Source: Prorocentrum cordatum (taxonomy: Eukaryota; Sar; Dinophyceae; Prorocentrales; Prorocentraceae). From it: a stretch of DNA of 64,000 nucleotides. The translations under genes were made by a program, and so were the position numbers. The DNA is taken from positions 1-64,000 of the forward strand of contig CAUYUJ010000692.1 in the NCBI GenBank assembly GCA_963575745.1. The letters run 5' to 3'. Within the stretch, counting starts at the first letter, position 1. The number at the start of each line of letters is the position of its first letter. Shown piece after piece: positions 1 through 52,512 of this stretch. The notes beneath the pieces were generated by a model. That model was given only the letters and a program-made list of their open reading frames with translations. It searched no databases and was not told where the DNA came from.

Positions 1-2
1 CT

Positions 3-302
3 GCCAAGGGGAGAGAGCCAATGCCAGAGTGGTGTTTGTGCCTTCGCAACGCGTGCGAAGCGAATTCTTTTAGCGGACCCGTAGTGGTCCAGGACGACCA
101 GTCCCCATGCGTTTTGTGCGGGGCGGTCAAAGTGGATGGGTGCCCTTTACTTGATGACAGCTACACGTGTTCCAGCTGTTGTTTGTTGTGGCACCCATCT
201 TGCTCACGATGGGCCGCGTCCAAATGGGGCGTGGACTGCGACAAGTTTATGATGGCCCCTTGGATGTGCCCAGCCTGCGAATCAGCATACGCAGCAGGTT
301 GA
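3..302 (+). CDS. 3' end of a family A gene: C-terminal PHD-type zinc finger protein (partial)
   Basis: The frame is open to the window edge, so the gene starts outside. The visible 99 residues end in a Cys4-His-Cys3 pattern: CVLCG, then YTCSSC, then LLWHPSC, then MCPAC, the spacing of a PHD-like zinc finger (usually a protein or histone-tail reader). It aligns with the C-terminus of the minus-strand gene ending at 47533: GREPMPEWCLCLRNACEA matches EREVMPAKWVRLRDMWRTA, and CESAYAAG matches CMRAYAG. The two are therefore paralogues on opposite strands. Here the protein stops directly after the finger; the other copy has about 25 more residues. The stop is TGA at 300-302 and a CAT microsatellite follows at once. 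The paralogy is read directly; the binding role is family knowledge only. Confidence 0.7.
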   Translation, partial: AKGREPMPEWCLCLRNACEANSFSGPVVVQDDQSPCVLCGAVKVDGCPLLDDSYTCSSCCLLWHPSCSRWAASKWGVDCDKFMMAPWMCPACESAYAAG

Positions 303-337
303 GGCTTGGGGCCACACGCGCTGAAAGACAACAGCAT

Positions 338-505
338 CATCATCACCATCGTCATCAACAGCACCATCATCACCATCACCATCACCATCAACGTCACCAT
401 CACCATCACCATCATCATCACCATCATCATCATCATCATCATCATCATCATGATCAGCAGCATCAGCATCATCTTCATCATCAACATCATTATCATCATC
501 ATCCC
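338..505 (+). repeat. (CAT)n microsatellite
   Basis: Imperfect CAT/CAC trinucleotide run directly after the family A stop codon. It makes long false ORFs (His, Ile or Met runs) in several frames. Similar tracts lie at 37180-37475, 41756-41905, 57841-58065 and 59355-59830. Confidence 0.9.
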
Positions 506-1124
506 TCCTCCTAGTCCCTCTATTCCTTCTCCTTCCCCTTCCCCTCAGTCCTCCCCATCCCTCCAGATGATGCCTCATCCCCCTCCCCCGCATCCCCCTC
601 CTCCTCCTCATGGTCCTGCTCCTCGCTCTTAGGCGTCCTTCCCTTCCCCCCCCAATCCCGATGGGGTAAGTCAGGTTTTTGCGTGCGCAGCAGGCTGTGT
701 CTAATGATCGCACAGGTTCGGGGATGCGTCCCACATCAGCGTACCTAAACGATTGGGAGGGGCAGGGGGCATGGGAATGGGGTCGAGCTCTCTCTTTCTC
801 GCCCCTGCTGTCGGCGCAGGCGTTCGCGACTTCCTGGACCTGCCGATGGCGTGTGCCGCGGCACCCGCGCCTTCGGCGCCCGCTGCTGCGCTGGGCGGCG
901 GCGACGCGCAGGTCTTGGGGAGTCGGATCGGGCTTGCGCGCTCTCGCATTTCCATTTCTGTTCTTGATTCGGAAAAAAAAAAACAACACAACACATATTT
1001 GCAGGACACTGAACTGTAGTATTGCGTGTGTGTTTTGTTTGAGTTGTTTGTGAATTTAACTGCACAGCGTGACATTTTTATTTGAATTGTACCAGATACA
1101 CGTCTGTCGCTATATGCTCGTGTG
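506..1124. other. Intergenic, no gene seen
   Basis: C/T-rich to 650, then ordinary mixed sequence. ORFs here overlap in both directions with no recognisable domain. Nothing supports a gene. Confidence 0.5.
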
Positions 1125-2338
1125 GCAGCTGCTGCCAGCTATTGCAGTTGCTCCAAGGGTCCATTTGGCAGCTGCTGCAATGGGCCATCCCGGCGGGAAG
1201 CCGATGGCCAGGAGTGCCAACTGGGCCCCTTTGAGCAGCGTCCACCTGGCAGGAGCTGGCCAAATGGATAGTCTTCCAGTACAGCGTCTTTGGCAGGGAG
1301 TGGCAAATGGACTAGAGCCATACGTTATTTGGCAGGGAGCTTGCCCAAAAGGACCTCTAGCGACAGGCGTGCATTTGGAGGAGCTTGCCAATGCACGTCT
1401 GTCTCTGGGGTCCATTTGCCAGCTTTCCTTCGCCAAATTGAACGTCGGGCTTAAGGGGGGAGCATTAGGCAGCTCGCAAAAATGGGGGTCTGTCTCTAGG
1501 GGTGTGCATTTGGCGCCTGCCAAAAGCACGTCTGTCTCTAGGGGTCATTGGCATGCTCTGCCAAATGAAGTCGGCTACAAGGGGTCCATTAGGCCGCTCC
1601 TGCAAATGGGTTCTTGTCTCTTAGGGGTGCATTTGGCAGGGTCCTGCAATGCACGTCTGTCTTAGGGGTTCCATTGGCAGCTATGCCCAAATCGACCCCT
1701 AGGGGACGGTTCGTTAGATTTGGCCGTGGCTGCCAAAAGGATCCCTAGAGGCAGGTGCTTTGGACAGCTTCCTGCCAAAAGCGGTCTGTCTCTGGAGGGT
1801 TCCATTGGCCGCTCCTGCCAATGGGCGTCTGTTCTCTTAGGGGTCCATTGGCAGAGCTGCCAAAATGCAGTCGGTCTTAGTGGTCGTTTAGGACCGAGTG
1901 CCAAATTGACTTTAGAGTCAGCACGTATCGTAATTTGGCAGCTGCTGCCAAATGAACGTATGTCTCTAGGGGTCCATTTGGCAGCTCCTGCCAAATGCAC
2001 GTCTGTCTCTAGGGGTCCGTTTGGCAGCTCCTGCCAAATGGGGGTCTGTCTCTAGGGGTGGATTTGGCAGCTCCTGCCAAATGCACGTCTGTCTCTAGGG
2101 GCCCATTTGGCAGCTCCTGCCAAATGGGCGTCTGTCTCTAGGGGCCCATTTGGCAGCTCCTGCCAAATGCACGTCTGTCTCGAGGGGTCCATTTGGCAGC
2201 TGCTGCCAAAGCCACGTCTGTCTCGGGGGGTGCATTTGGCAGCTCCTGCCAAATCGACCTCTGGAGACATACGTAGGTTTGGCAGCAGCTGCCAAATGGA
2301 CCCCTAGAGATAGACGCGTATTTGGCAGCTGCCGCTAG
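1125..2338. repeat. 43-bp satellite built on a 19-bp palindrome with flipped spacers
   Basis: About 28 units of 43 bp. Each has a near-perfect palindrome, TTTGGCAGCTCCTGCCAAA, and a 24-bp spacer of the type GCACGTCTGTCTCTAGGGG. Copies at 1950-2320 are almost identical and those at 1125-1900 are eroded. Most spacers share one orientation. At about 1309, 1349, 1692, 1738, 1908, 2254 and 2298 the spacer reads as its reverse complement (for example GACCCCTAGAGATAGACG). The array ends a few bases before the ATG of the family B gene. Confidence 0.9.
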
Positions 2339-2341
2339 ATT

Positions 2342-5300
2342 ATGGGGTGTCGGGCGTTGTCCAAACAATATTTTGCCACCGAGGTGGCGTCTACGGGCAT
2401 CGATTTCAGCCAGTTCAAGCACAGCCAAGTGTGGGGCGACGGCTTCGCTCGTGCCGAGGACCGTTTCCCAGGGTTCGTGGGCTTGCAGCTCATGGAGATC
2501 CTGTTTCACTTCTATCCCATCTCGAAGGGCGCCTCGATCAAGTTCATCAACGGCGCAGGGCAGTGGGCCATCTGGAGGGACCCCTTGAACAGCTCTCGCG
2601 GGGACGAGGCTACGATAGAGGACCCTGGACCCTGCCGAACTTCTAAACGCAGCCACGCAACCATCCTTGACCGTATTACCTTATTTATTCTCTTCATCGC
2701 TTTGCTCCTTCTCCTTCTCGTGAAGGATAGGGCCGTCAGCATCGAGACCGTAGGCTTGCTTCATGGTCTCCGAGGCGGTGCGTGGGTCAGGGCTGGCTCC
2801 AAAGATAACGCCATGGGCCCCGCCGCCACCTTCACCACGCTCCACTGGGGGTCATTGTGCGACGGCGTCAAGAGGGCCTTCGACCGTGACCCGAAGAAGT
2901 TGAATGCGAAGGTCCAGCGCAGCGTTGCCCTCGGCTTGCAGGACGTCACCGTGTTCCCGTTCGACACCCCGAGGGACGTCTGCGAGAAGCTGGTGTCCTT
3001 GGGCAACTCCATGAACAACAAAGCCTTGTCGACCACCTTCGTCGAGGTTTGCGAGTCGACCGACGTCATCGAGGCGACGTGGGACAAGCAGAAGGAGGAT
3101 TTTGGCTGGACTCATTCCAGCATCGGGCAGACGGCCATGGAGGCCAACAAGAAGGCGATGTTCAAGGCCGCGTTCGATTACCCACGCTGGGACTCCATCC
3201 CGATGTACGAGAATTGCCGCAAGTTCTACGCCGGCGCCAAGGCCCTGGTCATCAAGCGCGGGTCGGGCGCTGAGGTGGCCTACTGGGATGTGTTCAAGGA
3301 GAGCACTGCTAGGGATCGCAACGAACCCCTATTCCGAAACATCCTGGGGCTGTGGTTGTTCAAAATGCAGTGTTTTCCCCGTGCGAACTCGCTCGAATGT
3401 AGAAAAACATATGGTTTTTTGTTCATTTACTTGCTTCGATCGTCATATCGTGCGAGCGTTTGTCGTTCGAGGGCATCCCTTAGGTGATAAACTTATAGTT
3501 TTCCTATTGTGTTTTCAATGATTCGCCGCGTTCGCACGGGGAAACCCTAGGCAATTTGATACAATTTTGTGCTCTCGTTGCGGGAGGAGTGGTGCAAGAC
3601 CAATGTTGATTTCACGAATAGGGCCGTCGACAACCATCGGGTGATCTTCGCCAGCTGCTTCGCCATCTTCAAGCGCTTCAAGGACGACCCTTCCATGATG
3701 GAGCAGCTGTTCTCGCTCGTGCTGCCTGTGAACAGGCTGCGCAATGGCTGCGCTGGGGCATGGCGCATGCCGCTGTTGCCCCGACCTGCCCGTCTCCCCT
3801 CTTCCCCCGCGGGGGTCGGGGGAGAAGGGGTCAGCCCAGTAGCCGAGACCACTTGAGCAAACGCTTCCTTGGAGGATGTGCTTGGGAGGGGAGGAGAAGG
3901 GAGGAAATGAGGAACGGAGGGGAGGGAGGTAAACGTGCCAAAGTGGCCCCCGCAGAGATGGGGGAGGAGGCGGGAGGATGAGGAGGAGGATGAGGAGGAG
4001 GAGGAGTAGGGGGAGGAGGAGGAGGAGGAGGAGGAGGAGGAGGAGGACGAACAAGAGGAGAAGGAGGAGGCGGGCGATGCGGGGAGGGAGAAGGACGAGG
4101 AGGAGGGAAGAGGACGAGGGGGAGGAGGATATGGAGGGGGTCGAGGAGGAGGAGTGGGGCAAATTGAAACATGGAAATCTGTAGTTTCCCTGTCTGTTCC
4201 AGCTTACATGGGCAGTAGGATGGAGTAGGAGGAGGAGGAGGAGGAGGAGGAGGAGGAGGAGGAGAGAGTAGGAAGAGAGGGAGGAAGAGGAGAAGGATGA
4301 GGAGGAGGAGGAGGAGGGGGAGGAGGGACGGAGGATGGAGGAGAATGAGGAGAAGACTGATGTACGTTTGCAGTTGAAAGAGTGCGACGCTCAAAGGCCC
4401 ATCGGCAAGTGCCCCCTGCTCAAGGAGGGCTTGCCGAACCCAGCCATCGCCACGACGATCACCGACGGGATGATCATGTCCAGTCTGTTGGCGGCCATGG
4501 ACGACAGCAAAGTGAGCGAGGTCATCGTGGCGGAGGGCAATGACTACAGGGCGGCAGTTGCAGAGCAAGCGCTTCTGCAACAAGTTGGATCGGAGCAGAA
4601 GTCGGCGACGTCGGCAGGGCGCGGGAGAGGCACGGGCAGAGGCAGGAGCTCCGCCAGGGGCAGAGGCAAGGCGCCAACGTCTGCATCAAAAGGGCCAGGG
4701 CCTGTCCAAGTTCAGGAGGTGGGCAAGCTCTTCATCCACAACGTGAAGAACCTATCGGATTACTTGCGAAAGATTCACCCTGCGAACCCCCACATCGCTG
4801 CGTACGAGACCCTGGCTTACTTCGCATCCTTGAAAGGGAGTGTGACCCTGGACGGGAGGGGGCCTGGCAAGGAGACGACTGTACGCAAGTTCACCGCGCT
4901 CAGGAAGGCCATCAAGAGGCAGGTGTACATGAGTGCCAAGCTCGCGCCTCGCACCTCGGACCCAGATTTTCCAGATGGAATTGACGGTATGGGTACGGAT
5001 GACACCAGCAAGGGGGGCGTGCCGAAGTTGTCGGAGATCAGTGAGACCCAGGCCGAGAACATGCTCATGGAGTTCGTCAAGCACGCGCAGACAGTGTACA
5101 ACTACATGACGAGCAACCTTCCCAACATCAGCATCGATTGTCACATTGCGCCTGCGAAGGTCGCCAACGAAGCGATGATGACTATATTCCCACAGCTGCC
5201 GACCAGTACTTGCGGTGACGCGGCCACGTTGTTCAGTGACATTGTCCTACCAGCGGTGTTGGGCAAGATCGAGGAGACTTTGCCAACGACTTTCGATCAG

Positions 5301-5674
5301 GCCTTTGACCAGTTCGTCGTCTTGCGCGAAGCAAATAAGACGTTCGCGGAGCACGTCGCGGGAGGGGGGTCCGCCGTGAATGTGTTCGAGCAGATCTGGC
5401 AGAAGGGCTTTACTACCACCATGGTGCAGAACACGCGGATGCAGCTGATGACCAAGGTGATGCCCCACTTGGGATCGATGCAGTTCAACGGTTCAACTAA
5501 AGATGGCAGTACGATTTCATTCCCATGGGTTCCCGTCTTCATTCAAAGCCAGATGAAGGTGGCTTTTATTTTCAATATTTTTTTATTTTTTTTTTTTTTT
5601 TCTTTTTTTTTTTTTTGTTTGTTTTTTTTTTTGCTTTTTATTTATTTGTTTTCTTTTTTTATTTTTTTTTTTTT

Positions 5675-5710
<36 letters not shown>

Positions 5711-7233
5711 CTTTTTTTTTTTGATGTTTTTTTTTTTATTGTTTTCTTATTAATTTTTTTGTTTTCTTTTTTTATTCTTTTATTTGTTTTTTTGCGACAA
5801 GCACGCCATGGACAAGAAGCTCAACACGAACGAGAACATCACAATGACGGAGATCGTTGACATCAGCAATAAGATTGACAAACCTTGGGACGAGTACGTG
5901 CGCATCTGGATGCAGAAACTCCTCGGCATGAACACGGATCTGGATACGTTGGATTACAAGGCGTTCCGAGATGAGCACGACCAAACGATGGACGAGCTTA
6001 ACAAGATGACGATTCAATCCATCTCGCGCGTGATGTTTACGCAGTTCGGATCATCGTTGAAATACGGGACTACGAGGGCGCAGGCGGTGGCACAGTACCA
6101 GAAGTTGTACCATACCAAGCACGAGAAGAATCTCTGGGTCCTCGACTGGTGCGAGAATCCCGAAGCGGCCTACCGCATCATCGTTGAGGGCCTGCGCAAC
6201 GAGTACGTGCCGCAAGTGGAGCAAGCAACGTCGATGGTGGCCATCGAGAGGAGCGTCCTCGCTGATGAGATTGACGACGAGACCCTGTCCGCGCTCATCA
6301 CCAAGACGAAAGCCAGCGAGCTCGTTGAGTCCGACCTTAGCGTTGCCGAGGAGAAGTACCTGATCACGAAAGTGCAAGACCACCTCAACACTGTAAACAT
6401 GAATGTCATCAACGCTGGCGGCTTCAAGGGGTCCGATCTGCTTTCCGTGTCGACGCTCGTCGCCAGTGCCAAAGAGACGAGGGTGGTCATCACCCAGACG
6501 AACGAGGGCCACGTCGAGCTGCCGTACTGGGGCCGCGTCATCAGCGAGGCGGCTGGGACATCGTCAAACCCGAAGAACGTCCTGCCGATGGAGGTCTACA
6601 TTAAGGAGCAGCGTGCTGATGACCATGACCAGAACGTTGAGACGGAGAAGCTGGTCTGCACGCTCTACTTGGACAGCTCAGTCAACAAGAACCCCGATAG
6701 GAGCGACTGCTGCCACGCCTTCCTCGCAGCAGTTTTCAACGCCAAGAAGGCCAGTGTGATCTGACAGGGGATTGGAGGACGAGGAGAGGGGAAATAGAAG
6801 AAGAGGGTTGATGAGGAGCAGGAGGGGAATTCAGAATCAGCAGGAGTAGCAGCAGGATAACGACTACGAAGAATAGAGGAAGAGGACGAAGTTGAGGAGG
6901 AAGAGGAGGATGAGGAGAAGTTTTTATGTAGTGTAACGTCGGATTTTAACTTGTCTGTAAGTGTACCTAAAGGCAGAGGCGCAGTCCAAGAAGCGCAAGG
7001 CCGAGGATTCTGTCGTGATGGAGGGCCTTGCGAGCCATGAGGTCGTGTATACCAAAGTAGACTTCGCTGTGTTCGGGAAAGATTTGATTGTTCAGGTGCC
7101 CTCCCTCGTGCCCGTTGGCGTCCAGCCGCCTGTGCCGTTCACCATCGTGCGGGCCAAAGTCGCCAACGATGACAGGGAGAGGGTGAAGCCCGCCGAGCGT
7201 GGCTCGCCCTCGAAGTCGTTCACGCACAGCTGA
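2342..7233 (+). CDS. Family B gene, multi-exon, function unknown (plus-strand copy)
   Basis: Probable exons: 2342 to about 2600; about 2791 to about 3370; about 3587 to about 3750; 4374-5558; 5802-6755; 6973-7233 (TGA). The last junctions are well supported: GT-AG introns at 5559-5801 and 6756-6972 both keep phase 0. The protein would be about 1,050 residues. It has a Gly/Arg-Gly patch near 4610-4690 (GRGRGTGRGR) and a basic, NLS-like KKRKAEDS after 6985. No signal peptide or known catalytic motif was recognised. It is paralogous to the minus-strand gene 41344-37858: GPAATF...W..L...KRAF...VQ......GL matches GPSKTF...W..L..AF...VQ......GL, and TPRDVCEKL matches TPRNVVEFM. The start is chosen because ATG 2342 follows an AG (2338-2339) directly after the satellite. 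Upstream exons cannot be excluded. Confidence 0.7.
3371..3586 (+). mobile_element. Introner-like intron with 15-bp terminal inverted repeats
   Basis: A segment that breaks the family B coding sequence carries perfect 15-bp inverted repeats: TTTCCCCGTGCGAAC at 3374-3388 and its reverse complement at 3530-3544. The flanking exons (…ILGLWLFKMQ and REEWCKTNVDF…) are in the same frame. The exact splice sites are not resolved. Introns with inverted-repeat ends match the introner elements described in dinoflagellates and relatives. Confidence 0.6.
3765..4373 (+). repeat. Intron filled with (GGA)n
   Basis: G/A-rich intron of family B, dominated by GGA from about 3970 to 4340. The 3' splice site is probably TTTGCAG at 4367-4373, which restores phase 0 into LKECDAQRPIG. 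A GC donor near 3757 is possible. The long GGA run creates false ORFs on both strands. Confidence 0.6.
5559..5801 (+). repeat. Poly-T intron, GT-AG
   Basis: This 243-bp intron is almost entirely T, with scattered G, A and C. The donor AAG|GTGGCT and acceptor GACAAG|CAC both fall at codon boundaries, joining SQMK to HAMDKKLNTN. It shows that long T tracts in this genome can sit inside working introns. Confidence 0.8.
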
Positions 7234-8028
7234 GGTCCAGAACCTCCAGGCGCAACCAAGCTTCACAGCGATGGATTCGTCATCGCACGGGCCCCTTGCA
7301 TCATTACATCCACAGGACACTTGCATCCTTGAAATCTAATCGCAAAGGTAAATCACCTTTGAAACGGATTGCTTAACATAAGCTTGGTTGCGCAGCTGTC
7401 AGCCAGTGTTTTGTTTTTTTGGTCGTGGCCAGGGTGTATCTTGGGAGCGTGAGTTCAGTATGGGATTGAACCTCGCGTCGAAAGAACAGTTGCGAGACCC
7501 TGGCACAGCCGCACGGTGCCGATATGCTCAGAGTGTGTCTGTGCACCGTGCATGAGACATGTGTGCTCTGTGATGGAGGTCGGAGGGTCGTCTCACAGCA
7601 CGATAGGTGGTCCAGAAAAAACGATCGTTTGCACAATGGGTAACCATTCCGCACTGTCGTGTCTCAAATCCAGCTCGCTCCTCTTGCAAGTGGAAGCGTG
7701 GTTTGTTAGTGTTGGCTCCAAATACACTCTCAATATTAAATACTTAACGGTCGGAAACACGAAAAACACAACATACTGAGCGGTCGGAAACACAAACAGC
7801 ATATGATCCACGTGGTATGTTTAATCGCGGCCGTTGCCATTTTAAATAAATTCACGCAGAAAGTAGGCGCAACCATATTCGTAGTCAAGCTCAAAATCAA
7901 TTACCACCACCACACCAAAGCCTGACCTGCCAAACCGCCTTGAAGGCAAAATCCTCTGTGACACAACCTACCCAACACTCCGGGGTTCTCACCTGGCTCA
8001 TTTAAGCAAGTCACTGGATGTGTTCTCC
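7234..8028. other. Intergenic, between family B and the secreted protein gene
   Basis: Mixed, locally AT-richer sequence with no supported ORF. It holds a 33-bp tandem duplication starting with CGGTCGGAAACAC (about 7749 and 7783). CCGTTGCCATTTT at 7831-7843 matches the first 13 bases of the dinoflagellate SL at 12 positions, but the rest of the SL is absent. Confidence 0.5.
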
Positions 8029-8111
8029 CCGGCGTGCGCGCGGCTCAAGCCGGGTCGGCAGGCGCTGTGGCCAGCGATACGCCAGCCCCTCGACTCAGGC
8101 CCCAAGTCCGC

Positions 8112-13139: not shown

Positions 13140-14215
<1,076 letters not shown>

Positions 14216-36635: not shown

Positions 36636-36639
36636 ATAG

Positions 36640-36765: not shown

Positions 36766-36989
36766 TGGTGGTTTACTTGGGCGATGGCGGGGCCGAGTTT
36801 GGGCCAACAAACTCCTGCTCCTCGTCCTCATTCCTCCCTGATTCGTCCTTCTCCGCCTCCTCGTACTCCTCTCTCCTCCTCTCCTCAGGGGGCCTCTCCC
36901 CCCTCCCTCGCCCTCCCAGGCGGCCGCCGGGGCCTGCGCGTAAACGACCGTCCCGAAATAATGGAGGGGGCCGCCGCGCGCGCGGGGGG

Positions 36990-37475: not shown

Positions 37476-37857
37476 TGTTGCCATAATCGTCCCCGTGTCC
37501 ATCACCTTCACCATCGTGCTCCCCGTCGCGATCGTCATGCCATCATCCGCCCGCAGTCGCCCTGCTCCTCTAGTCTGTCTCTTTTCCCTCCCTCACCTGC
37601 CCTTTCCCTGTCATTGCTGTTGCAGTTGGCTGCTTGCTGCTTGGTTGGTGCTTGGTTTAGTGCTGCTTGCTGCTCCTTGCTGCTTGGTTTAGTGCAGTTT
37701 TGCGACCTTGTTTCTTATGATCATTGCTAGATGGAATGTTTGTTTGTTCGTTGTGTTTTGCTGTCTGTCGAGAGGGGGCGTCAGCCCGATCCGATCCCGC
37801 ACGCACTGTGTGCCAATGTCATTCAGAGCCTCCGACTCGTCTCCTCAAAGCCTCACC

Positions 37858-41344: not shown

Positions 41345-41431
41345 CCTTCGGGTCTCTGAGTCTCTGGATCTCTGGAGGCCTCTACAGAATCAGCCCTGGG
41401 ATCGGTGCATCATCTGAGCACATCGCCCGAG

Positions 41432-41455
41432 CTTTGAGCCTTAACCGCTATGACG
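41432..41455 (-). other. Spliced-leader relic upstream of the family B gene
   Basis: On the minus strand, CATAGCGGTTAAGGCTCAAA matches the dinoflagellate SL 3' part (TAGC, TT and GGCTCAA all present, one inserted A before the final G). It lies 88 bases 5' of ATG 41344 and in the sense orientation. The weakest of the three gene-linked relics, but consistent in position. Confidence 0.5.
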
Positions 41456-41755
41456 ATGTGCTAGTGTGCTGTATGTTGTATGTTAGGCAGTAATATGTTT
41501 GATGCTATTGTTGTTGCTCTTGTTGTTCTTGACAGCATCCCCTTTCTGCTACATAAACCTCTTGCAAATATTCCTCCGCTTGCTCGCTTGCTCCTCCTTC
41601 CTTTCTACCCTCCTGCTTGGGCGTCCTGCTTCACATTATCCTAGATCCTCCTCATCTCCTCATCTCTGAGGCGGCTTGGCTCCTGGGCAAAGCTCCGAAG
41701 TTCTGACTGGGCACCCCTACCCCTCTTCAGCATAATTCTCTGTTGTGCGGGATTG

Positions 41756-41850
41756 TGGGATGATGATGTTTACCATTTTGAACGGGATGGTGATGATGAT
41801 GGTGTTTGTGGTGGTGATGCTGATGCTGATGCTGATGCTCATGATGATGG

Positions 41851-41881
<31 letters not shown>

Positions 41882-41905
41882 GATGATGCTGATGTTGATG
41901 ATGAC
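41756..41905 (-). repeat. (CAT)n microsatellite (read ATG on the plus strand)
   Basis: GATGATGATG/GGTGATG tract between the family B and methyltransferase genes. Confidence 0.9.
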
Positions 41906-42020
41906 GCCCTCTCGCTCGGTTGAACCCCACCAGCGTACCCCAGACTCCCAGCACACGTCAAAATGCATGCTGCAGCCGCCTCTCTAGTCCATGCCGCACG
42001 GGCCCCATGCGCCTCGCAGT

Positions 42021-44399
42021 CTACTTAGAACCCTTGGCCATCTCATCGAACCTCCTCTTGAGGGCTCGGATTCGCTCAAGGCTCTGGCGCGCAGGCGTGG
42101 GGACTGGTTTCTTGGGCGCGGACTGGCCGTGTAGAAGGCAGTACACTTGCGAGAGCATGATGATTGCCACGTGCATCGCATTGCCAGATTCTGCACACAC
42201 TACGCGGCATTTGCGAGCCGCTTCGTCGGGAGGCCTATGAAGGTTGAAGCTGCAGAGAGCCTTGCCGCCCTCGCTGACGTGCGCCTGTACAAATGCAGGA
42301 TTGACTGGGAAGCCTTGCGCAAACAGAGCCTCTGTGCCGCATAGCCAGCGGCTCCCAGAGGGCAGCTCGGCGTAGATGAGGCCCATCTTGCTCACAAGAG
42401 TCTGCAGGTTGTCGCCAGATGAGGACATCTGGTGATGCGTGGCACCATCTTGTGACAATGACCACGCTGCTCCTGGAAACGCCTTCCGATAGTTCTTGAC
42501 ATTGTTCTGCTCCCAGGGGCTCAAAGACAACCAGAAGGCATCGCGATCGTCCGTGGTGAAGGGTTCTTTCTGGTACCTTAAGCTGTTGCGCCTTGCCGTC
42601 GATGCCCATTTCAGCTCCTCATTGAGCTCGTCCTTGATGATAGGGTTGTCGTAGGCGTCCTGAGGGTACTTGTGCATGAAGAAGAAATCGCGCCACGTCG
42701 ACTTGCACATGGTATGGAACCTCCGAAGGAATCTTGATAGCGGAGGAACCTCAGCCATGCACTTCACGTTGTGTCGGAGGATGGTGTATTTCCTCTCCCT
42801 GGCAATTGGGAAACCGTAGGAGCGTGGATCGGTGTTCGCGACGTCGATGAAGTAGAACTTGCCAAGGAATTTGGCCAGCACCTCCGTCGCGAACTGTTTC
42901 ACATTTTCTTGCACCACCATTGCTTCTTGAAGAACCAGCCTCAGGCCTATCCACGCGAGTAGGCAGAATATGGTCGGTCCTAGCACGTCCTGCTGGGAAC
43001 CCAGCGGTGTGAAGTCGACGCAGGGGTTGCCTGCCACATGGCGGTCTGCCTCCTTGAGCTCGCAGGTACAGTTGTGAGCATGACACTTCGCCTGTAGCTT
43101 GACAGCCTTACCATCGAACACCAAAGGGGAGAGGAACTTCAACGCGTTCTGGTTTGTGATCTTCTTGTCTTTAATGAGCTGCACCGCTTCGTCTGACCAA
43201 AAGTCAGTTATGTCTCCGAATACGCAGCCGCCGCTCTCCTGCATCAGCATCTTGAGCTCCGTCTGGCAATCCTTGTTGATGTCGCAGGCAGACAACATCT
43301 TGGGCCGATTCAGCTTCTCGTTTTGCAGGATACTTTGAAGCCGGAAGTGCAACAGGTTCATGCTGACTTCTGGAGTGCCAATGCCACTGAAAGCCGTGGA
43401 CATCGTCTTATCGCCCAAGCTGCGCCCGAGGCGAAGCAAGACGTCTCCTCCTTCCTCCTTCAGCAGCGTGTCTATGACGTGGCGCTCGAAGTCAGCAGTC
43501 GGTGGTTCCGCTAGCTCCGCCACGCTGGTGTAGTCGCTGACGTCGTTGCCCCCACTCTCCTCCACGGCCTTGGCGATGCGAGCTTCTTCATCAGCCAGAT
43601 CAGGTTGCTTCTCCTGCTGCTCATCGTCCACGCGCAGCATCTTCATGGTCGCCGATGGGTGAGACTCGCACTCGGCCTCAGCAGCCTCGCTCTTGGAATC
43701 ATTCTCGCCACCATCCTCCTGGACGACGCTCATCTCGGACTGGGACTGCTCTGGCGGCAGCTCCTGCTGAGGTTCAGGCTCTGGCAGTTCCAGCAGCTGT
43801 GGCGGTGGCTCAGGTGTGATCTGCTGCTGCGACGACGAGCACGCGCACCCGTCGTCGTCGACTGCGTCGCCCTGGCCGTCGTCACTGCGCGCTGCGGGCG
43901 GGAAGGACAACAGTTGTTGAGTAGCCTTGAATGCACCCGCTGGAACGGCATGCCTTCGCAAAAACGTTGCGCCCCTACTAGCTTTGTTTATCTTCAGCGC
44001 AACCAAGAGTTGCTCGTCCAGCTTCTTTGCGTCGGTGAACTCAACCACGATGACCTTCCCTTTCCGCTTGTCCTCACCAATTATGTTGTTCAGTACCGCC
44101 TCTGTCACCCTGTGCTTCGTGAAACTGTTCGTGAACTCGGACTCGCTGATGGTCCTGACACAGTTGAACGTTGCAATCCCATGGAGCTTGCATAGCGTCT
44201 CCTCCTTGCGCGAGCAGAAGCCAGTGGTAGCTTCTGCGATGTAGACCTGGTCACCATGCTTGAAGTAATTTGTTTTGGACTGCATCACCTCCCAGCAGAC
44301 TGGACCACCATTGTGAGTGCCGCCGCCGCCGAAGAACATGGCTGCATGCTCTGGTGTGCGAACGGTCAAGGCTCGGTGGTAGTTCTCCATCAAGCTCAT
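42021..44399 (-). CDS. Cytosine-5 DNA methyltransferase, intronless
   Basis: One uninterrupted frame of 792 codons from ATG 44399 to TAG 42021. The methylation motifs come in order: I, TAFSGIGTPEVS (residues 335-346, SAM binding); II/III, ACDIN and FGDITDF (371-400); IV, GNPCVDFTPLG with the catalytic Pro-Cys at 459-460; VI, QENV (497-500); VIII, GFPIARERKYTI (529-540); IX-like, RWLCGTEALFAQGFPV (684-699); X, ESGNAMHVA (737-745). The N-terminal 160 residues are a separate domain with no family recognised (CWEVMQSKTNYFKHGDQVYI). A Gln/Glu/Pro-rich acidic linker follows (about 165-300). The frame is open for 90 codons further upstream, but those contain a spliced-leader relic, so ATG 44399 is preferred. 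All key residues are intact, so it may be active. Family B and family A genes flank it on the same strand. Confidence 0.85.
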   Translation of the reverse strand: MSLMENYHRALTVRTPEHAAMFFGGGGTHNGGPVCWEVMQSKTNYFKHGDQVYIAEATTGFCSRKEETLCKLHGIATFNCVRTISESEFTNSFTKHRVTEAVLNNIIGEDKRKGKVIVVEFTDAKKLDEQLLVALKINKASRGATFLRRHAVPAGAFKATQQLLSFPPAARSDDGQGDAVDDDGCACSSSQQQITPEPPPQLLELPEPEPQQELPPEQSQSEMSVVQEDGGENDSKSEAAEAECESHPSATMKMLRVDDEQQEKQPDLADEEARIAKAVEESGGNDVSDYTSVAELAEPPTADFERHVIDTLLKEEGGDVLLRLGRSLGDKTMSTAFSGIGTPEVSMNLLHFRLQSILQNEKLNRPKMLSACDINKDCQTELKMLMQESGGCVFGDITDFWSDEAVQLIKDKKITNQNALKFLSPLVFDGKAVKLQAKCHAHNCTCELKEADRHVAGNPCVDFTPLGSQQDVLGPTIFCLLAWIGLRLVLQEAMVVQENVKQFATEVLAKFLGKFYFIDVANTDPRSYGFPIARERKYTILRHNVKCMAEVPPLSRFLRRFHTMCKSTWRDFFFMHKYPQDAYDNPIIKDELNEELKWASTARRNSLRYQKEPFTTDDRDAFWLSLSPWEQNNVKNYRKAFPGAAWSLSQDGATHHQMSSSGDNLQTLVSKMGLIYAELPSGSRWLCGTEALFAQGFPVNPAFVQAHVSEGGKALCSFNLHRPPDEAARKCRVVCAESGNAMHVAIIMLSQVYCLLHGQSAPKKPVPTPARQSLERIRALKRRFDEMAKGSK

Positions 44400-44481
44400 T
44401 CGGAGATGCCCCGCGGCGCCCAGGTTCCCTGGTGCCACTGGTGCCGCATGATGCCAGGCGCTCGCCTCGATTCGCAACAGG

Positions 44482-44503
44482 TTTGAGCCAAAACAGGCAA
44501 CGG
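44482..44503 (-). other. Spliced-leader relic upstream of the methyltransferase
   Basis: Minus strand: CCGTTGCC, then TG, then TTTTGGCTCAAA. It differs from the SL by one substitution, a small change in the middle and the last base. It lies 83 bases 5' of ATG 44399, the position an SL would hold in the mRNA. Confidence 0.7.
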
Positions 44504-44828
44504 ATGACGTTATTGATGGTGTTTTGTTGGTGATAGCTTGTGTGTTTATTGCAAGGTGCCCTCGATCAGAAACCGTGGCGCACCACTGCCTGACGATGCC
44601 GATGCTGATGTTGTTGCCGATTATGCTGCTGATGGCATCGTGCGCGTGCCGATCTCTACGATTCTCCACTCGATTTCGACCATCGTTCTCTGGATATCGT
44701 TCCCCTTTTCGAGTTCTGAACGAGGCGTTTTCGTTGCTGTTCTGCCATTTAGTGGGCAGTTTTTGTCTTGTGATCGCCTCGATTGCACGCCAAATCGCAT
44801 GCGTTAGGCCCTAAATCTGAAGCTATTA
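44504..44828. other. Upstream of the methyltransferase; no promoter motif seen
   Basis: AT-richer than most of the window. No TATA-like or other element can be assigned and there is no gene. Confidence 0.4.
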
Positions 44829-45065
44829 CCTTCAGGCGCTGGGGCCCGAATGGGGGCCATTCAGGCGCTGGGGCCCGAATGGGCCTGTCAGGGCCTGCCA
44901 TTCAGGCCCCAGGGCCCGAATGGACATGCAATTCGGGTCCCGGGGACCCGAATAGGGGGGGCATTCAGGCCTCAGGACCCGAATGGACCTGCCATTCAGG
45001 CCTCAGGACCCGAATGGACCTGCCGTTCAGGCCTCGGGGCCCGAATGGCACTTCCAGGGCTCGCC
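44829..45065. repeat. Minisatellite of about 31-34 bp
   Basis: CAGGCCTCAGGACCCGAATGG and CTGGGGCCCGAATGG variants repeat about seven times. One unit contains the palindrome ATTCGGGTCCCGGGGACCCG. Confidence 0.8.
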
Positions 45066-45129
45066 CGAGCTGCTCGCTCCCAGAGGCCCCAGGAGACCCA
45101 AACACCTCACAAAATCAGGCCCGCACTTT

Positions 45130-46480
45130 CAAATAAGGAACGTTTTTCATGTGCGCGGGCTGCAATTTTCCTTCACGCACGCCTCATTTGCTGTCGGATT
45201 CAGGCGTTCACGCTGTGCCTTTGCGTTGTTCAGGGGTGGGTGGGGCCTCAACTTCGCTCCTCGATATGGGTGGGTTGGCGGGGATGGGTGTCGATGTTGA
45301 GCCAATCCCCGCTGCCCTGCTCCCTCCTCCATCCTCCTGTGTCCTCCGACACAGCCGCAAATCGTCTCGATAGGAACTGGCCTTTTCCTACCCGTAACCG
45401 ACACAACCGCAATATCCGTAACTCCCCAACTCCTCGTTCCCCCTCCCGCTCCTCTGACCTCCTCCTCCTCCATCCTTCACCTCCTCAACCCCATCCCTAG
45501 CTATATTCCTTAAGCTTTCTGCCTCACGACTGTAAGGGGCCCATCAGCACAGCAAATCCGAGCCGACACTCGGCTCGCAGACGACGAGACTACCCAGAGA
45601 TCCCCGCAAGAAAGTTGCTGGCTCGTCTGAGCCCGACAGGCCTCCCGAGAGGGTGGAGGCGTGCGAGACGGCTAATCACACCCAGAACCCAGACTCAGAC
45701 GGAGACGGCTGGAAAGAGCAGGGCGGGGGAAGGGAGCGGGGGGGAGGAGTGGGGGGAGCAGGAGACCCAAACTCCTCACTCACACAATCAAGCCCGAACT
45801 ACTTGCAAATCAGGAATGTGACTCATGTGCGCGGGCTGCAATGTTCTTTCACGCACGCCTCATTTGCTTTCTGGCTTTCTGGTCCAGGCGTTCACCCTGT
45901 GCTTTTGTGTTGTTCGGGGGGGGCTCAACTTCGCTCCTCGATATGGGTGGGTTGGCGGGGATGGGTGTCGATGTTGAGCCAATCCCCGCTGTCCTGCTCC
46001 CTCTTCCATCCTCCTGCGTCCTCCGACACAGCCGCAAATCGTCTCGATGGGAACTGGCCTGCTCCTACCCGTAACCGACACAACCGCAACATCCGTAACT
46101 CCGTAACTCCTCGTTCCCCTTCCTGCCCCTCAGACCTCCTCCTCCTTCTTGACCCTTCACCTCCTTAACCCCTATCCCTAGCTATATTCCTTAAGCTCTC
46201 TGCCTCACGTCTGCAAGGGGCCCATCAGCACAGCAAATCCGAGCCGACACTCGGCTCGCAGACGACGAGACTACCCAGAGATCCCCGCAAGAAAGTTGCT
46301 GGCTCGTCTGAGCCCGACAGGCCTCCCGAGAGAGTGGAGGCGTGCGAGACGGCCAATCACACCCAGAACCCAGACTCAGACGGAGACGGCTGGAAGGAGG
46401 AGGGCGGGGGAAGGGACGGGGAAGGGAGCGGAGCGGGGGGCGGAGTGGGAGGAGGGAGGGATATGATGTAGGGTGTCTTC
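45130..46480. repeat. Tandem segmental duplication, 677-bp period
   Basis: 45130-45805 and 45806-46480 are near-identical in order: TTCACGCACGCCTCATTTGC, CTCGATATGGGTGGGTTGGC, ACAGCCGCAAATCGTCTCGA, TAGCTATATTCCTTAAGCT, ACACTCGGCTCGCAGACGAC, CAGACTCAGACGGAGACGGC. No coding frame is conserved between copies. Confidence 0.85.
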
Positions 46481-47532
46481 AGGATGACTCTATGCTTGGT
46501 TCAATGCTTGATGTGTGTGTGCTGCTACATATGACATATGTGCGCGATGTATGCCAATTATCGTGTCATCTCTGTGTGATGATATTTAGGTTAGGAAGGC
46601 CTGACGGCCGGCGCCGCCGACCCTGAAAGACGCCGACGACGACCAGGAGTGGGATGAGGAGGAGAAGGAGGGGGAGCAGGAGGAGGAGGCGGAGATAAGA
46701 GGAGGAGGCGGAGATAAGGAGGCGGAAATAAAGAGGAGGAGGAGGAGCAGGAGGAGGAGGAGGAGAAGGAGGCGAGCCAGAACGCCCACGCAGCCCACGC
46801 AATTGAAAGGAGGAGGGGACGGAGGAGACTACGGGGCGCGATGGACTCGTGATGACGAAGGGGCCCCGAGAGGACAAAGGACGGGGCACGAACAAACCCT
46901 CACCGAGCGGAGGAGCCTTCGGGACGCCCCTGCCCTCAAGAGGACCCTCAACCGATTGCGAACGCGGGTGCCCATGTGCCCATATTTCTTATGTCCCAAC
47001 TTGCTGCCCTGGGAGCCCTGGGAGCTGGCGAGGACCTCAAGGACCCCCCCAGGAGGCACCCGAGAGGGGAGTGGCCACAAAGGCCCCCTCCGCTCCTTGG
47101 TACACCTCCAGTAGGGAGCCATCGCCAGTGCGAAAAATACCATCCCTCATATCGCTGGCCTCACAAAGCACGTTCCTATCGAGACGCTTCCCTGACTGTC
47201 TGACTCTTCAGATTCCCAATGACGATGGACCACCTAGTCACCCAGGCAGGAGCACAGAGGAGGAGGAGGAGAGGAGGAGGAGGAGGAGGAGGTATTGTTT
47301 GTTTACGCGGTTATGCTCTTATGATGTTTTGATGTGATGTTGGTATGCGTATGTGTGGTGGCATGGTTTAATGTGTGTATGGTGTTATGCCGTCATGTGT
47401 TCTGGCTTAGTTGTTATGTTTATTTGTGGTTACACATTGGGGGGCTTGTTCAATATTGGTCATGCTGTTACGCTGTTAGGATGGCAGTGAGGTTGACTGT
47501 TGAATATGGAACTACGGTGCTACGGCCCATGC
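46481..47532. other. Spacer with (GGA)n, no gene seen
   Basis: GGA/GAG microsatellite at 46650-46790 and a short one at 47255-47293. Otherwise mixed sequence without a supported frame, then T/G-rich sequence 3' of the family A stop. Confidence 0.6.
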
Positions 47533-50500
47533 TCATACTTGGTGTTTATTGTTGTTTGTAACACTTGCTATGTTGTTGTCCACTGTGTCCAGTGGGCTAT
47601 CCACCCCAGCATATGCGCGCATGCACAGGCGGCACACGCTCCGCCCGTCGAAAGGAGCGGGCAAACGAAACTTGCAAACCGACCCATGCACAAGCAGGGG
47701 CAGGAGATGGAGCCAGGCTGCTGCGCAGTCGTCGTGCCATGCTAGGAGGCACACTGCGCAATGTAAGAGCCTGGCGCCTGCGTTGCCGCCGCATCGTGCA
47801 CACTGCAGAACGGTTGCAGTGGAGCCAGCTGGGCCTACGTTCACCGAGACAGCCTGCATCGTCTGCGCTGTGCGCCACATGTCACGCAGGCGAACCCACT
47901 TGGCTGGCATGACCTCTCGCTCCTTAGATTGGAAGACCCCTGCGGTCTTCCTCGCTCTCTGCATCTTGATACCGATCCCAGGGTGCACGACTGCGCACCC
48001 CGTGAAGTCTTGCTTCCGAACGTTCGCAGCCACTATGGTGATCACCCTGTTGTGGTCGTCGAGCGATGCGATGCGGCCTTTCCACTTCTCATCCCGAACC
48101 CACTGGACGAAGTCGGTGTGATCTCCAGTCTGAGGGTCGTTGTACGCAATGAGGGACATGCACGCTTCGCCGTATGCGTCTTGGCCGAGCTCCATGCACC
48201 TGACGTCATCATTCATGACCTCGGACAACAACTCCATGCCTGTCTGAAACGAGCCACGCCAACGCACAAGGACGACCTTCGCATCCGAATCCAGCGCATC
48301 CAGATCAAGGCCTGGCTCAGTTGCGTCCATCGGCTGCTGCGTAGTATCTGGAGTCTCTGGAGGAGGGCCGCCCCCAAGCTCCACGTGCTGCAATGTCGCC
48401 TCCACCTCCGCTTCCTCAACGTGCAGGCCCGCTTTGATGAACCCGTCAACCGCGTCAGGGTCCACGGCAGGTCCGCTCGGGCCGTTCGGGCATGTTGCAT
48501 CGTCCATTGCTTTAAATATCTTGCCCAATTCGTTTTTACGTGCTGCCTCCTCGTCCTTCCCTGACCAGTCTAGCTGCGCTGCCTGCGCTGCTGTCTCGTC
48601 GTCGTCGTTGTGGTTGCCTGTATCTCCTCCCTGCACCTCCTCCGCCCACGTCAGGTCCATGGCCATCTCTAAGGCTCGCAGCATCTCGTCGTCTGAGTCG
48701 ATTGGCAGCCCTGCGCCGCCGTCGCCTGCGCCGCCGTCGCCTCCTCCAGCGGCGATAGCGCCAGCCGGTGGCGGCTTCTGGCGCTTCGGCTTGGGCGGCT
48801 TGGGCTCCCCCGCGTCGTCGTGCTCATCGCGTTCCCTCTCGATCTTTGGCGGGATCTTCTGCAATGTGAGGACAGTTTCTTCAGGTTTGCCATTCCCCTG
48901 TATGGACGCGCGCCGAAGTCCACACCCTTGCACGTCCCATTTGATCAGATAGCGGTGAAGCCCATACTCTGTCGGTAGCGGTACGTCGACGTCGCCCTCC
49001 TCTCCACTCCCATCTTCGTGCAAGAGGTCGTAATATTGCATGAATACGTTGAGAGACGAATTGCACTGTTGACCAGCGGCAACCACCAGCTGAAACGACT
49101 CGAAGCCCACCTGCTCGACATGTGCGTGAGCCACTCGAAACATGTGGTAATACCTGTCGAACGTGAGGAGCACGGTTGAGTCATCCTCAAGATGGTCGGC
49201 GAACGCCCAGCACTCGGAAAGGTAGTAAGCCTCGGTGTTCCTGCCCACGCGCTGCCTCCATCTGTACCACGCCAAGTTGTAAGCTGTGCACCAGGCGAAC
49301 CCAGGCAAGGAAGGGTGATCTTCATAGATGCCCATACGCAAGCTCATGAGTTTGACTTCTTTCTTGGATGGAAGCGGCGTTGGCGGCTCAGGTGCTTTCC
49401 ATCTCGCGGGTGCTGCTTGAACCGCACGTGCTCCGTCGCCGCCGTTCTCGATAATCAGTTTGACCAAAGCTTGGGCAGCTGGGCGCCTCGCCGACCACCG
49501 CTGATTAGTATTCTTGTTGGTTAGGTAATGCTTGAGGCACACTCTTCCTGACAGCAAGTCCAACGTTGCATTTGGACACCGCTCTCCCAATAGTGATATC
49601 ATTTTGTTGATGCGCTCATTCTCCCGGACGTCTCCTTTCCACAATCGTCTGACCAGCCAAAGAAATTGATATAGCTTCGGGCCGATGCTTCTCCCGTTGG
49701 TATCGATTACCATCTTGATGTCAGCTGCGAACCTCCTCTTGATTTTCAGCGCGTTGATCTCAAGCAGGTCCTCTGGAGTATTTTGAATTTCTTTGGCCAC
49801 ATAGAACTTCTCGCTGGAGGGCTCGTTCATCCCAACATCCACCAGAAGCATCAGCCTGTGGGGGAAGGCCACGACCTTTCGCGATATGCGGCGATAGAAC
49901 CCGCCCGCATTCGTCAGGATCATCGTGGCTGCGAGTTGCCGTAGCCAAGCCTGGTCAGCGGCGGCATCAATCCCTTGAGTGGTCAGCTCGTCCCAGGCTG
50001 GGTCATCAAGGCTTGCCCAGAACTCTCTGAATATGATGCGACCTTTGCCGCATGCCAGCTGGGCTAAGTGCGTGCCTGTCTCATCGAGCTCCTCCTCCGA
50101 AAACGATTTCATCACGAACGCCGAGTGGTGCTTGAGAGGTGCCCTCGAAAGCCTGCATATCTCGAGGACTCGCCAGAACAGTACGTCATTCTCGGTATCC
50201 ATGATGTCTCTGCGCCATTTTCCCAAAATTGTCGTGTAGTGCTTCTGCTCGTCGATGGCAATGTCGTTGACTCCGCTCCGCCTGCCCTCGGTCTCGTCCT
50301 TGGGCTTGGGAGCGAATGCCCCCCTCATTCATCGTCCACCTCCCTCTTAGCATCCACCTCCTCCTCATCCTTGTCCTCCTCCTTTTCCTCCTCATCCTCA
50401 TTCTCATCCTCCTGCGGAGTAGGAGGAGGAGAAGGAGGAGGCGGAGGAGGAGACGGATTATTCCTCCTCCTCTCCCTCCTCCTCCTCCGCCTCCTCACGT

Positions 50501-52512
50501 CTCCTCTTCTTCCTCCTCTTGTTCTTCCTCCTCCTCCTCCTCCTCCTCCTCCTCCCCCTCCTCCCCCTCCCCCTCCTGCCACAGAAAAGGCGCTGCTGCC
50601 GCTGCTTCTCTGCTCCTCTAGCTTGACCCCCCCCCCCCGATCCGTCCTGGATAGGTTCGCGCCGCTCCACGTCGCCGTATTTATCAATCAGGGTCACTCT
50701 CAGAGCATGCATCAATCTCTCTGGGCCGATCTCCAAAATGCGGTCCTCAACTACATCGACCGAGCCCCATCGGCCAGCAACGCACGAAGGAAACAGCTTT
50801 TTCATAACTTTGTTCCCGTCCACGAAACCATAGAGTTTGCAGAAATTCTGGTAGAGCTCTTTGGTAACCTCACGTATGACATTCGCTAGCTTGGCCAGCG
50901 TCGAGAAATATTTGCGCTTGGACCCGTGTTGCTTCAAGAAGGTGTCGGCTATTTTCAGGCAGTCCAGCACAATGAGATGTCGCGCATGTTCCTGGCAGTC
51001 GCTATCCATGAACAAGATATTGTCCCTGTCTGCTAGGATCGTGGCAAGGACCTTGGACGCATATACCTCGTCTGGTCCACGATCTCTCGTATAGCAAAAC
51101 GCGAACATCCCCTCCGTATCTAAGCCGATATCATCCCACGTCGGACACCCCAGACTCCGCAGATGCTTTATCCAGGCGCCGAGTGTGTGGTGACCTGTGA
51201 AAGACTCGCACCACTGCATGCGTCGATGAGTTCCCCCCACCCCATTGCCGCTTCCCTCTCCCCCTCCCCCCTCACACCATTACATGGTGCAAGGGTAGGT
51301 GCGAGGGGGAAGGGGGAGGGAAAAGCGGGAGGAGGGGGAGAGGGTACTCATGGACGCGCACAGGCGAAGTGAGCCAGGCCGCCACACCGTCTGCATGGTC
51401 GACAGGTAGCACGTCAGCAGCCCGCCGAATGTTGAAGGTCAGGTCGTCGAGTCGCATGGGAGATAGCATGGGCGTGTCCTTGTAGATGAAAGCCGTCTCC
51501 AATTCGAGTGCAGCGAGCTTCCTCCTTTGCCAGATCTGTGAATTTGTCGCGTCGTGCCGGAAGGCAAAGACGCAGCAGTCGATCTCTCCATTCTTCATTG
51601 AATCAGTAAGCACCTTATGAAACGCATGGGATGATGCGATCAAGGCCGCTGCCGATTTGACTTCGGCTCGTGCGACTGACCAGCGGCTCAGGTCGACGAG
51701 GGCAGCGGAGCCCATGTCAGCACATGCTATGTTGGAGAGATTCCGACGCACTGCGAGTGCGGCAGCTCCTTCAGAAGCTTCCCATTGCAACCACCAGCGT
51801 GGGTCACCTCCCCCAACTTCCCTCGTCCTCACACCTCTCGTAGCAAGATGTGGGGGGACGAGGGTCGTTGACGGAGGGCCAGCTCGGCAGTTACATTGGA
51901 ATCGCCCTGTCCTTGCTCAGTGAGCTTCACCCTCTGCTCTCCACGGCCCAAGACAATATGAAGGCCTTGGTTGGGATCGTCCTCTTGGTCACCGCCATCG
52001 CGAACAGCAATCTCAAGACGATGCACTTGTTGTCTCCGTCTGTCTAGGATCCGTCGCTGTCGAGCAAGAGCAGCATCTTTCTCGGCGAGGGCCGCAATGA
52101 GCTCCTGTCTAGACATGTGGTCGTAGGGCGTGCCTGGCACGCCTGCCTCCGAGGGCACAAGTGCATCGAAGCGAGGTTCTGCGACTCGTACGACTATATC
52201 TGCAGGCCCGGGGCGAAGAACGACATCGCTGCATGATCGTCGATGGGCTGCCAGAGTCGTCTTCGCCGAGCTCCAAGAAACATCATCAACAGGTACACCT
52301 GCCCACATCATCAGCACAGGAATAATATCGATGCGGTACAAGTCATCCCCGACAACAAAGCGTTCTGGAGCAATCGCTGTGGGAATCTGCCTGCGCTGGC
52401 CAGTGAACTCCGAAACAACAGATCGAACGCCCTCGCTCGAGAGCGCGTGCCCTCCAGATGCATCGTAAGTGACATGATATGAGAGGGCGCGTGAAAGGCG
52501 GGAGGCTAGCAT
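47533..52512 (-). CDS. Family A gene: hAT-transposase-like protein with C-terminal PHD-type finger
   Basis: Exons on the minus strand: 52512 (ATG) to about 51835; about 51830-51355; about 51194-50640; about 50330-47533 (stop). About 1,500 residues. Exon 1 ends in a coiled-coil-like stretch (MSRQELIAALAEKDAALARQ). Exon 3 has the order D.DCQEHARHLIVLD…FPSC…GRWGSVDVVEDRIL, like the C/H-rich insertion and RW.S segment of hAT-type RNase-H-fold transposases. Exon 4 has ENERINKMISLLGERCP then NATLDLLSGRVCLKHYL, like a hAT C-terminal region, then acidic linkers and an NLS-like PPKPKRQKPPP. It closes with a finger (CARCGG, LHCAVCLLAWHDDC, VCRLC) shared with the gene at 1-302. The hAT link is inference from motif order. 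Exons 1 and 2 abut with a frame change that may be an indel. Confidence 0.65.
50335..50640 (-). repeat. Intron rich in CCT/GGA with inverted arms
   Basis: Between the hAT-like exon and the long last exon of family A. GGA-rich (50424-50453) and CCT-rich (50462-50500) parts can pair; CCT runs continue to 50575. Confidence 0.6.
51195..51354 (-). mobile_element. Hairpin intron of family A (introner-like)
   Basis: The 3' splice site is well placed (TTTCACAG at 51202-51195). The intron carries a perfect 14-bp inverted repeat, CCCTCTCCCCCTCC at 51254-51267 and its complement at 51331-51344, with a second pairing inside around CACC/GGTG. The donor is not certain: a GC donor near 51354 keeps the frame (SPVR|HHTLGAW). 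Inverted-repeat introns fit introner elements. Confidence 0.55.

Follow-up and report, generated by a model that had tools for sequence, protein, structure and literature searches.

In biology, the nearest described counterparts of the locus reported here are SymbioLINE-Dnmt and SymbioDIRS-Dnmt3 of Symbiodinium, retrotransposons that carry a C5 methyltransferase (de Mendoza et al. 2018, PMC5890265), and in design the nearest are fungal DNA transposons with TET/JBP genes, which belong to several superfamilies including hAT (PMC12730594). Our locus lies in Prorocentrum cordatum, in the first 64,000 bases (hereafter the window) of contig C692 (651,709 bases), which belongs to an assembly of 4.13 Gb in 21,875 contigs. 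There we identify what we interpret as two large DNA transposons: element 1, which is complete and contains a gene A, a cytosine methyltransferase gene and a gene B, and element 2, which contains A and B and is cut off by the start of the contig. As in Symbiodinium, these are dinoflagellate mobile elements in which a C5 cytosine methyltransferase occurs in several families (the Symbiodinium genes being mostly intronless), yet the Symbiodinium elements (PMC5890265) have reverse transcriptase, whereas here we find genes A and B together with the 9-bp duplications and inverted ends of a DNA transposon. Prorocentrum is nowhere named in that paper, which does mention marine-virus DNA transposons with a methyltransferase, citing other work. 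With the fungal transposons our elements share a DNA-modification enzyme borne on a DNA transposon, the existence of related families without the enzyme (in our case, families that yielded none) and, in the case of hAT relatives with unusual 7-bp duplications, an atypical duplication length; however, the fungal enzyme is a dioxygenase acting on methylcytosine, whereas here we find a methyltransferase in a dinoflagellate, 9-bp duplications and a large conserved gene B (PMC12730594). No match to a TET/JBP gene was found in the element 1 frames scanned or in the P. cordatum protein P0005. Methyltransferases in dinoflagellate mobile elements have previously been reported for retrotransposons, and among the papers listed by a search of full-text literature (with preprints and most subscription papers outside its reach) there was none on a methyltransferase-bearing dinoflagellate DNA transposon; the present case is a DNA transposon with a methyltransferase of its own.

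We interpret the A-methyltransferase-B and A-B sets as one group of large (13-22 kb) dinoflagellate DNA transposons, a reading to which we assign a probability of roughly 0.85. We consider the sets mobile because their ends are defined, target-site duplications occur at six sites, an empty site exists for one insertion, and the genes are linked far more often than chance would allow. An earlier note on this DNA, made from the sequence alone, had recognised an A-B pair on the plus strand and an A-methyltransferase-B set on the minus strand, and had argued for a functional or mobile unit as opposed to chance; all five stretches are present as open frames, and the ends, duplications, empty site and ordered pairs (11 of 11 and 16 of 17, see below) bear its argument out. 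Element 1 has the following features.

36576..53272, minus strand (genes A, methyltransferase, B): element 1, complete DNA transposon, 16,697 bp (homology limits against the C7635 and C19267 copies, inverted ends, target-site duplication)
36576..36591, plus strand: terminal inverted repeat, B side, 16 bp, TAGGGACGTGCTTACG (copy comparison; exact genome-wide counts)
53257..53272, minus strand: terminal inverted repeat, A side, 16 bp, TAGGGACGTGCTTACG (copy comparison; exact genome-wide counts)
36567..36575, no strand: target-site duplication GACATGGCG, copy 1 (perfect 9-bp direct repeat)
53273..53281, no strand: target-site duplication GACATGGCG, copy 2 (perfect 9-bp direct repeat)
47536..52572, minus strand: A2, probable transposase, in frames 52572-51832, 51916-51275, 51279-50461 and 50328-47536 (open frames; homologous exons in C7635 and C19267)
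42024..44810, minus strand: C5 cytosine methyltransferase, 929-amino-acid open frame without a stop (PF00145, 19.9 bits; motifs in order)
37861..41389, minus strand: B2, in frames 41389-40745, 40925-38967 and 38811-37861 (open frames; protein match)

Six loci (in the window and on C20991, C590, C7635, C15767 and C19267) form a close methyltransferase group, and B follows on the same strand in all six. Upstream on C7635 and C19267 lies A, with matches to all four A2 exon frames, and the order A-methyltransferase-B is present in the window and on C7635, C19267, C19000 and C16656; on C590 a short stretch is 99 percent identical to the A2 region. The window is homologous to both C7635 and C19267 from 53273 down to 36575. 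Compared with one another, the latter two copies share four blocks at 91-96 percent identity, which together cover 11.9 kb within 17.6 kb (the region round the methyltransferase lying outside the direct comparison), and beyond the element limits their flanks gave no blastn match. The 16-bp ends are exact in the window and on C7635, with one mismatch at the right end on C19267, and each copy is bordered by a 9-bp direct repeat (GACATGGCG in the window, CTCGCCTGC on C7635 and GGGCTCGCC on C19267). When up to 3 mismatches were allowed, the end occurred in the window at its two places only (chance mean 0.18; two or more in 3 of 100 shuffles). Across the whole genome (4.13 Gb) it occurs exactly at 10 places, as against 0 for the reversed control, and 8 of the 10 fall on contigs that hold the cassette (two each on C692, C20991 and C7635, one each on C19267 and C590). 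On C590 the stretch compared first had no match to the right end of element 1, and an exact copy of the end is located more distally, at 40771. The other two exact ends, at C736:313320 and C3240:45504, lie outside known copies. Low-complexity inverted repeats (455 pairs, of which the 25 longest were viewed) had been considered as element ends and were rejected, the true ends coming from the copy comparison. Between A2 and the methyltransferase, element 1 also contains a 690-base tandem direct repeat (45090-45756 and 45759-46440, 89 percent identical).

The copy on C20991 was rejected as an independent insertion of element 1, since its flanks equal those of the window without any difference (438 + 368 flanking bases compared); C20991 is an allelic or redundant contig, and because C692 and C20991 represent the same locus, counting copies in this assembly can give numbers that are too high. 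A more distant family is represented by C19000 and C13389, whose methyltransferase is 32 percent identical to that of the window, and which are 99.6 percent identical to each other over two blocks (6.7 and 6.2 kb). The C19000 element measures 21,786 bp and has the gene order A, methyltransferase, start of B (C16656 likewise holds A, methyltransferase and B in this order), with ends TAGGGTGG...CCACCCTA; terminal inverted repeats in this family are shorter or imperfect compared with the exact 16-bp ends of element 1. The 9-bp duplications are gtgctgaac on C19000 and ttcgagagt on C13389.

Element 2, the A1-B1 set, extends across the contig boundary, with C20991 continuing beyond it and holding the remaining part of A1 (C20991:55401-63400). 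Its features in the window are as follows.

1..7974, plus strand: element 2, right part, second transposon (left boundary at C20991:61047, overall length about 13,331 bp; ends, duplication, empty site)
3..299, plus strand: end of A1 with a PHD-like tail (open frame; tail alignment; remaining gene on C20991)
2339..7230, plus strand: B1, in exon frames 2339-3484, 3560-3853, 4272-5750, 5754-6761 and 6961-7230 (open frames; relatives downstream of A relatives)
7963..7974, minus strand: terminal inverted repeat, right end, TGGGTAGGTTGT read inward (scan for direct repeats with inverted 12-mers, Markov resamples)
7975..7983, no strand: target-site duplication ACACTCCGG, right copy (scan, resamples, empty-site alignment)

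The ends of element 2 are TGGGTAGGTTG. In a scan for 8-10-bp direct repeats adjoining inverted 12-mers a single pair stood out, ACACTCCGG together with TGGGTAGGTTGC/T, in which 11 of 12 positions match, against a maximum of 10 in 300 Markov resamples. The element is inserted between two copies of a host stretch that are 90-96 percent identical (window 7975-9456 and the C20991 side), and the outer of the two, which lies about 2.3 kb away and is uninterrupted, provides its empty site: the joined flanks with a single ACACTCCGG align to it over their whole length of 210 bases, the alignment containing a 2-base gap and a small number of mismatches, of which one falls within the 9-mer. The empty site is a neighbouring and not an allelic one.

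Perfect 9-bp duplications were therefore found at all six insertions for which both ends are in hand (the window, C7635, C19267, C19000, C13389 and A1-B1), which represent three families, and each of the six carries a different duplication at an unrelated site. Shared boundaries and duplications of this kind were what the earlier note had recommended looking for. The marks of cut-and-paste transposition, namely terminal inverted repeats and a target-site duplication of fixed length (9 bp), are both present. That A, the methyltransferase and B might instead be a host gene cluster multiplied by segmental duplication gains something from the recurrence of the window locus with its flanks on C20991, and from the frequent tandem arrays of dinoflagellate genes described in PMC11453091. 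However, sharp inverted-repeat ends with a differing 9-bp duplication at six sites contradict such a cluster, as do the empty site of element 2 and the lack of any mutual match between the C7635 and C19267 flanks, and we find this explanation scarcely credible.

The linkage of the three genes was examined by genome searches, which kept the best candidates only, such that the loci counted below are those among the matches listed. At least 74 A loci were obtained with the A1 protein as query, at least 61 methyltransferase matches were merged by hand into 55 loci, and B loci came from separate searches with B2 and with B1. Within 30 kb there are 11 methyltransferase-B pairs (0.072 expected if independently placed), in all 11 of which B shares the strand of the methyltransferase and begins 0.7-2.8 kb downstream of it, and 17 A-B pairs (0.097 expected), of which 16 have B downstream on the same strand; the distance in these 16 is 4.7-8.4 kb in 15 and 22.8 kb in one. 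The odd pair is a second, upstream B-like match on C1736. Chance co-occurrence of A, methyltransferase and B is rejected by these counts, although the pairs are partly non-independent, because C692 and C20991 (the latter included in the 11 pairs) represent a single locus and closely related copies share an inherited order. The earlier note had named independent scatter of A and B as the outcome that would speak against it; in the P. cordatum assembly, at 30 kb, linkage was instead enriched and such scatter did not appear, though most A and methyltransferase loci are without a detected B.

Element 2 differs from element 1 in that no methyltransferase was matched in C20991:55401-63400, and a window-wide tblastn search found the methyltransferase only at its own place. 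Among the at least 74 loci found with A1, none has one of the at least 55 methyltransferase loci within 30 kb, and no contig is shared with the 120 PF00145 places compared (of at least 129); the use of A1 as query means that these counts carry little information on A beside methyltransferase genes. Since the A1-B1 family yielded no methyltransferase, the enzyme is, within the lists of matches searched, an optional or accessory part and not a core function. Related elements with and without a found methyltransferase thus occur in one genome, and indeed in one 64-kb window, offering a natural comparison that bears on the question of what a parasite gains from an enzyme of a type with which hosts defend themselves against parasites.

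The methyltransferase matches PF00145 at E 5e-4 and 19.9 bits, which is below the 22-bit curated cut-off, and it contains motifs I, IV (PC), VI (ENV) and VIII in order, as FSGIG, AGNPCVDFT, QENV and RERKY; judged by its sequence, it is a divergent member of the C5 family. A simple-pattern search of 21 methyltransferase frames (several of them cut, two pairs each representing one locus, and the patterns crude) recovered motif I in 9, motif IV in 17 (15 with PC), motif VI in 15 (14 with ENV) and motif VIII in 20. The methyltransferase families resemble one another at only about 30-40 percent. None of the contigs with the at least 55 methyltransferase loci is shared with the PF00145 genome matches (120 places compared of at least 129). 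Those PF00145 matches, at least 129 in the genome, include many near-identical frames of 383-402 amino acids, perhaps methyltransferases of the retrotransposon type.

Ratios of nonsynonymous to synonymous substitution (dN/dS, counted by the Nei-Gojobori method over codons whose local identity was 0.4 or higher) between the window and C7635 are 0.28 for the methyltransferase (742 codons), 0.34 and 0.38 for B, and 0.15 and 0.21 for A; for A against C19267 the ratio is 0.28, and for the methyltransferase against C15767 it is 0.24. With ratios well below 1 in each case, A, the methyltransferase and B are all maintained by selection, from which we argue that the enzyme serves the element. They also bear on the proposal that the methyltransferase is a retrotransposon-derived gene, of the SymbioLINE/SymbioDIRS type, that landed by chance between A and B. 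The single open frame of the methyltransferase, whereas A2 and B2 need several, would agree with such an origin, and so would the mostly intronless retrotransposon methyltransferases known in dinoflagellates (PMC5890265); yet a chance landing sits poorly with dN/dS of 0.24-0.28, with 17 loci at which B follows the methyltransferase in the same orientation although their families are no more than about 30-40 percent alike, and with the result that neither P0005 nor any of five frames scanned on the minus strand of element 1 matched a reverse transcriptase (frames 51275-51916 and 51832-52572, and the plus-strand frame 50068-50889, lying outside the scan). We regard a chance landing as improbable, while an old capture of the methyltransferase via a retrotransposon route is possible.

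A third origin, from a virus that integrated with its methyltransferase or from a Polinton-like element, would be compatible with the size of the elements, as 13-22 kb falls in the 14-40 kb that PMC12220804 states for Polinton-like viruses. Nevertheless, searches of limited reach offered it nothing: IMG/VR contained no relative of the methyltransferase or B, the best PHROG match of seven frames was no better than E 0.03, and no capsid or polymerase family was found in the frames scanned against Pfam. We consider a viral origin highly improbable.

Turning to the proteins of the proposed transposons, A2 contains HDATN, TRDRGPD, CQEHARH, GRWGS and a PHD-like tail, and A families with covering frames retain DATN (or DGTN), DxGxD/N, CxxH..H and GRWxS. 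A late E motif was seen in the alignment and frames, and a regular expression missed several instances of it. Where covered, the tail has a CxxC..CxxC..WHxxC..CxxC finger, and A tails gave weak zinc-finger matches in Pfam. Apart from these and from PF00145, comparison of A, B or the methyltransferase with Pfam, PHROGs, PDB sequences and predicted structures yielded no usable match. The remaining A1 on C20991 consists of two long frames (578 and 827 amino acids), the first of which matches A2 exon c in the central domain (phmmer E 4e-15). That the two A copies share a PHD-type tail, as the earlier note had stated, is confirmed by a Smith-Waterman score of 64 between the A1 and A2 tails, against a mean of 29.0 (standard deviation 4.7, maximum 48) in 500 shuffles. 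On the strength of a motif order like that of hAT and of the element structure, A is probably a transposase.

The hAT superfamily produces 8-bp duplications and the MULE superfamily 9-bp target-site duplications. The motif order in A (DATN, DxGxD/N, CxxH, RWxS, late E) is one that we take to resemble that of hAT transposases, and element ends beginning TAGGG presumably resemble those of Ac. The 9-bp duplication alone would fit MULE, but Pfam scans of A frames contained no MULE transposase domain, and the motif order is closer to hAT. Conversely, the duplications are of 9 and not 8 bp, hAT Pfam domains were absent from A at E 10 (three long frames) and at E 1 (eight further pieces), and a PHD-like tail and gene B also set these elements apart from hAT. 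Described hAT subgroups have 5-7-bp duplications (PMC12730594).

B2 is matched at 100 percent by the P. cordatum protein P0005 (1000 amino acids). The earlier note had B1 and B2 sharing TPR(D/N)V blocks. The block is aligned and the Smith-Waterman score of 81 exceeds those of 200 shuffles (mean 44.8, standard deviation 5.5, maximum 66), but BLASTP gave no match at E 1e-2. In addition, phmmer found no match of B1 pieces in the loci compared, and the genome match lists for the B2 and B1 queries have no locus in common. Because of the shuffle-supported score, the aligned block and the same position downstream of A, we consider B1 and B2 probably related. The UniRef name 'FACT complex subunit' of P0007, a relative of B, lacks Pfam support and was not used. 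Four or more P. cordatum proteins that had no name (P0003, P0005, P0006 and P0007) are explained by the A-B core. P0001, P0002 and P0004, relatives of the methyltransferase and A in other records, suggest that the group extends beyond P. cordatum.

Several results weigh against a single group of DNA transposons as we interpret it. Pfam contained no transposase family for A at E 1 or E 10, and the AlphaFold model of A (from four sequences) has a mean predicted local distance difference test score (pLDDT) of 45, with no Foldseek match at E 0.001; the description of A as transposase-like, already made in the earlier note, hence stands on motif order and element structure, with no support from profile and fold tests. 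When a profile of A was searched against PDB, ten sequences matched with E values no higher than 10, the best being 0.051, all in the N-terminal coiled-coil stretch, and for a DDE transposase conserved acidic motifs were seen and profile and fold matches were none. B had no convincing match in Pfam or PHROGs, and its AlphaFold model has a pLDDT of 30. In the C7635 and C19267 copies A is split over more frames than A2 in the window. Lastly, no B was detected within 30 kb at 44 of the methyltransferase loci (55 in all) and at 58 of the A loci (74 in all), and while a B start in the flanks of six further methyltransferase loci (C16656 included) raises the number with B to 17 of 55, the majority is still without. 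Loci of this kind may have a B that is too divergent or broken, or may truly be B-less.

If the group is what we propose, A would cut and insert the element by a cut-and-paste process, of which the insertion marks can be read and the excision step we infer, and would do so as an RNase-H-like DDE enzyme; its PHD-like tail could steer insertion or sense chromatin. As B is constant across elements, it would be a needed partner of A, such as a factor that binds the ends or helps in assembly. The methyltransferase may methylate the element's own freshly inserted DNA, such that a new copy blends with a host genome presumably methylated, as has been described for Symbiodinium, and has low expression, which would limit harm, and the activity of A may be tied to the methylation state of the element ends. 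We offer this self-methylation as a tentative proposal, plausible but short of even odds. The self-silencing or genome-marking cassette suggested in the earlier note may likewise be a possibility, which the present results neither favour nor contradict. A diffusible enzyme need not work in cis, and its principal targets could instead be in trans, either rival elements or the genome of the host; that the element keeps its methyltransferase suggests that the element benefits, though this does not fix the target, and we consider action mainly in trans rather unlikely. The A-B core with its 9-bp duplications may be a DNA transposon group still unnamed. A bolder version, in which a new eukaryotic superfamily of large elements has a two-gene core (A as transposase with a chromatin-reader tail, together with B), 9-bp duplications, and one branch that methylates its own new copies, bringing DNA modification into the transposition cycle, is speculative and on balance doubtful.

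Elsewhere in the window, at 62340-62510, a 171-base stretch is 91 percent identical to the reverse complement of itself.

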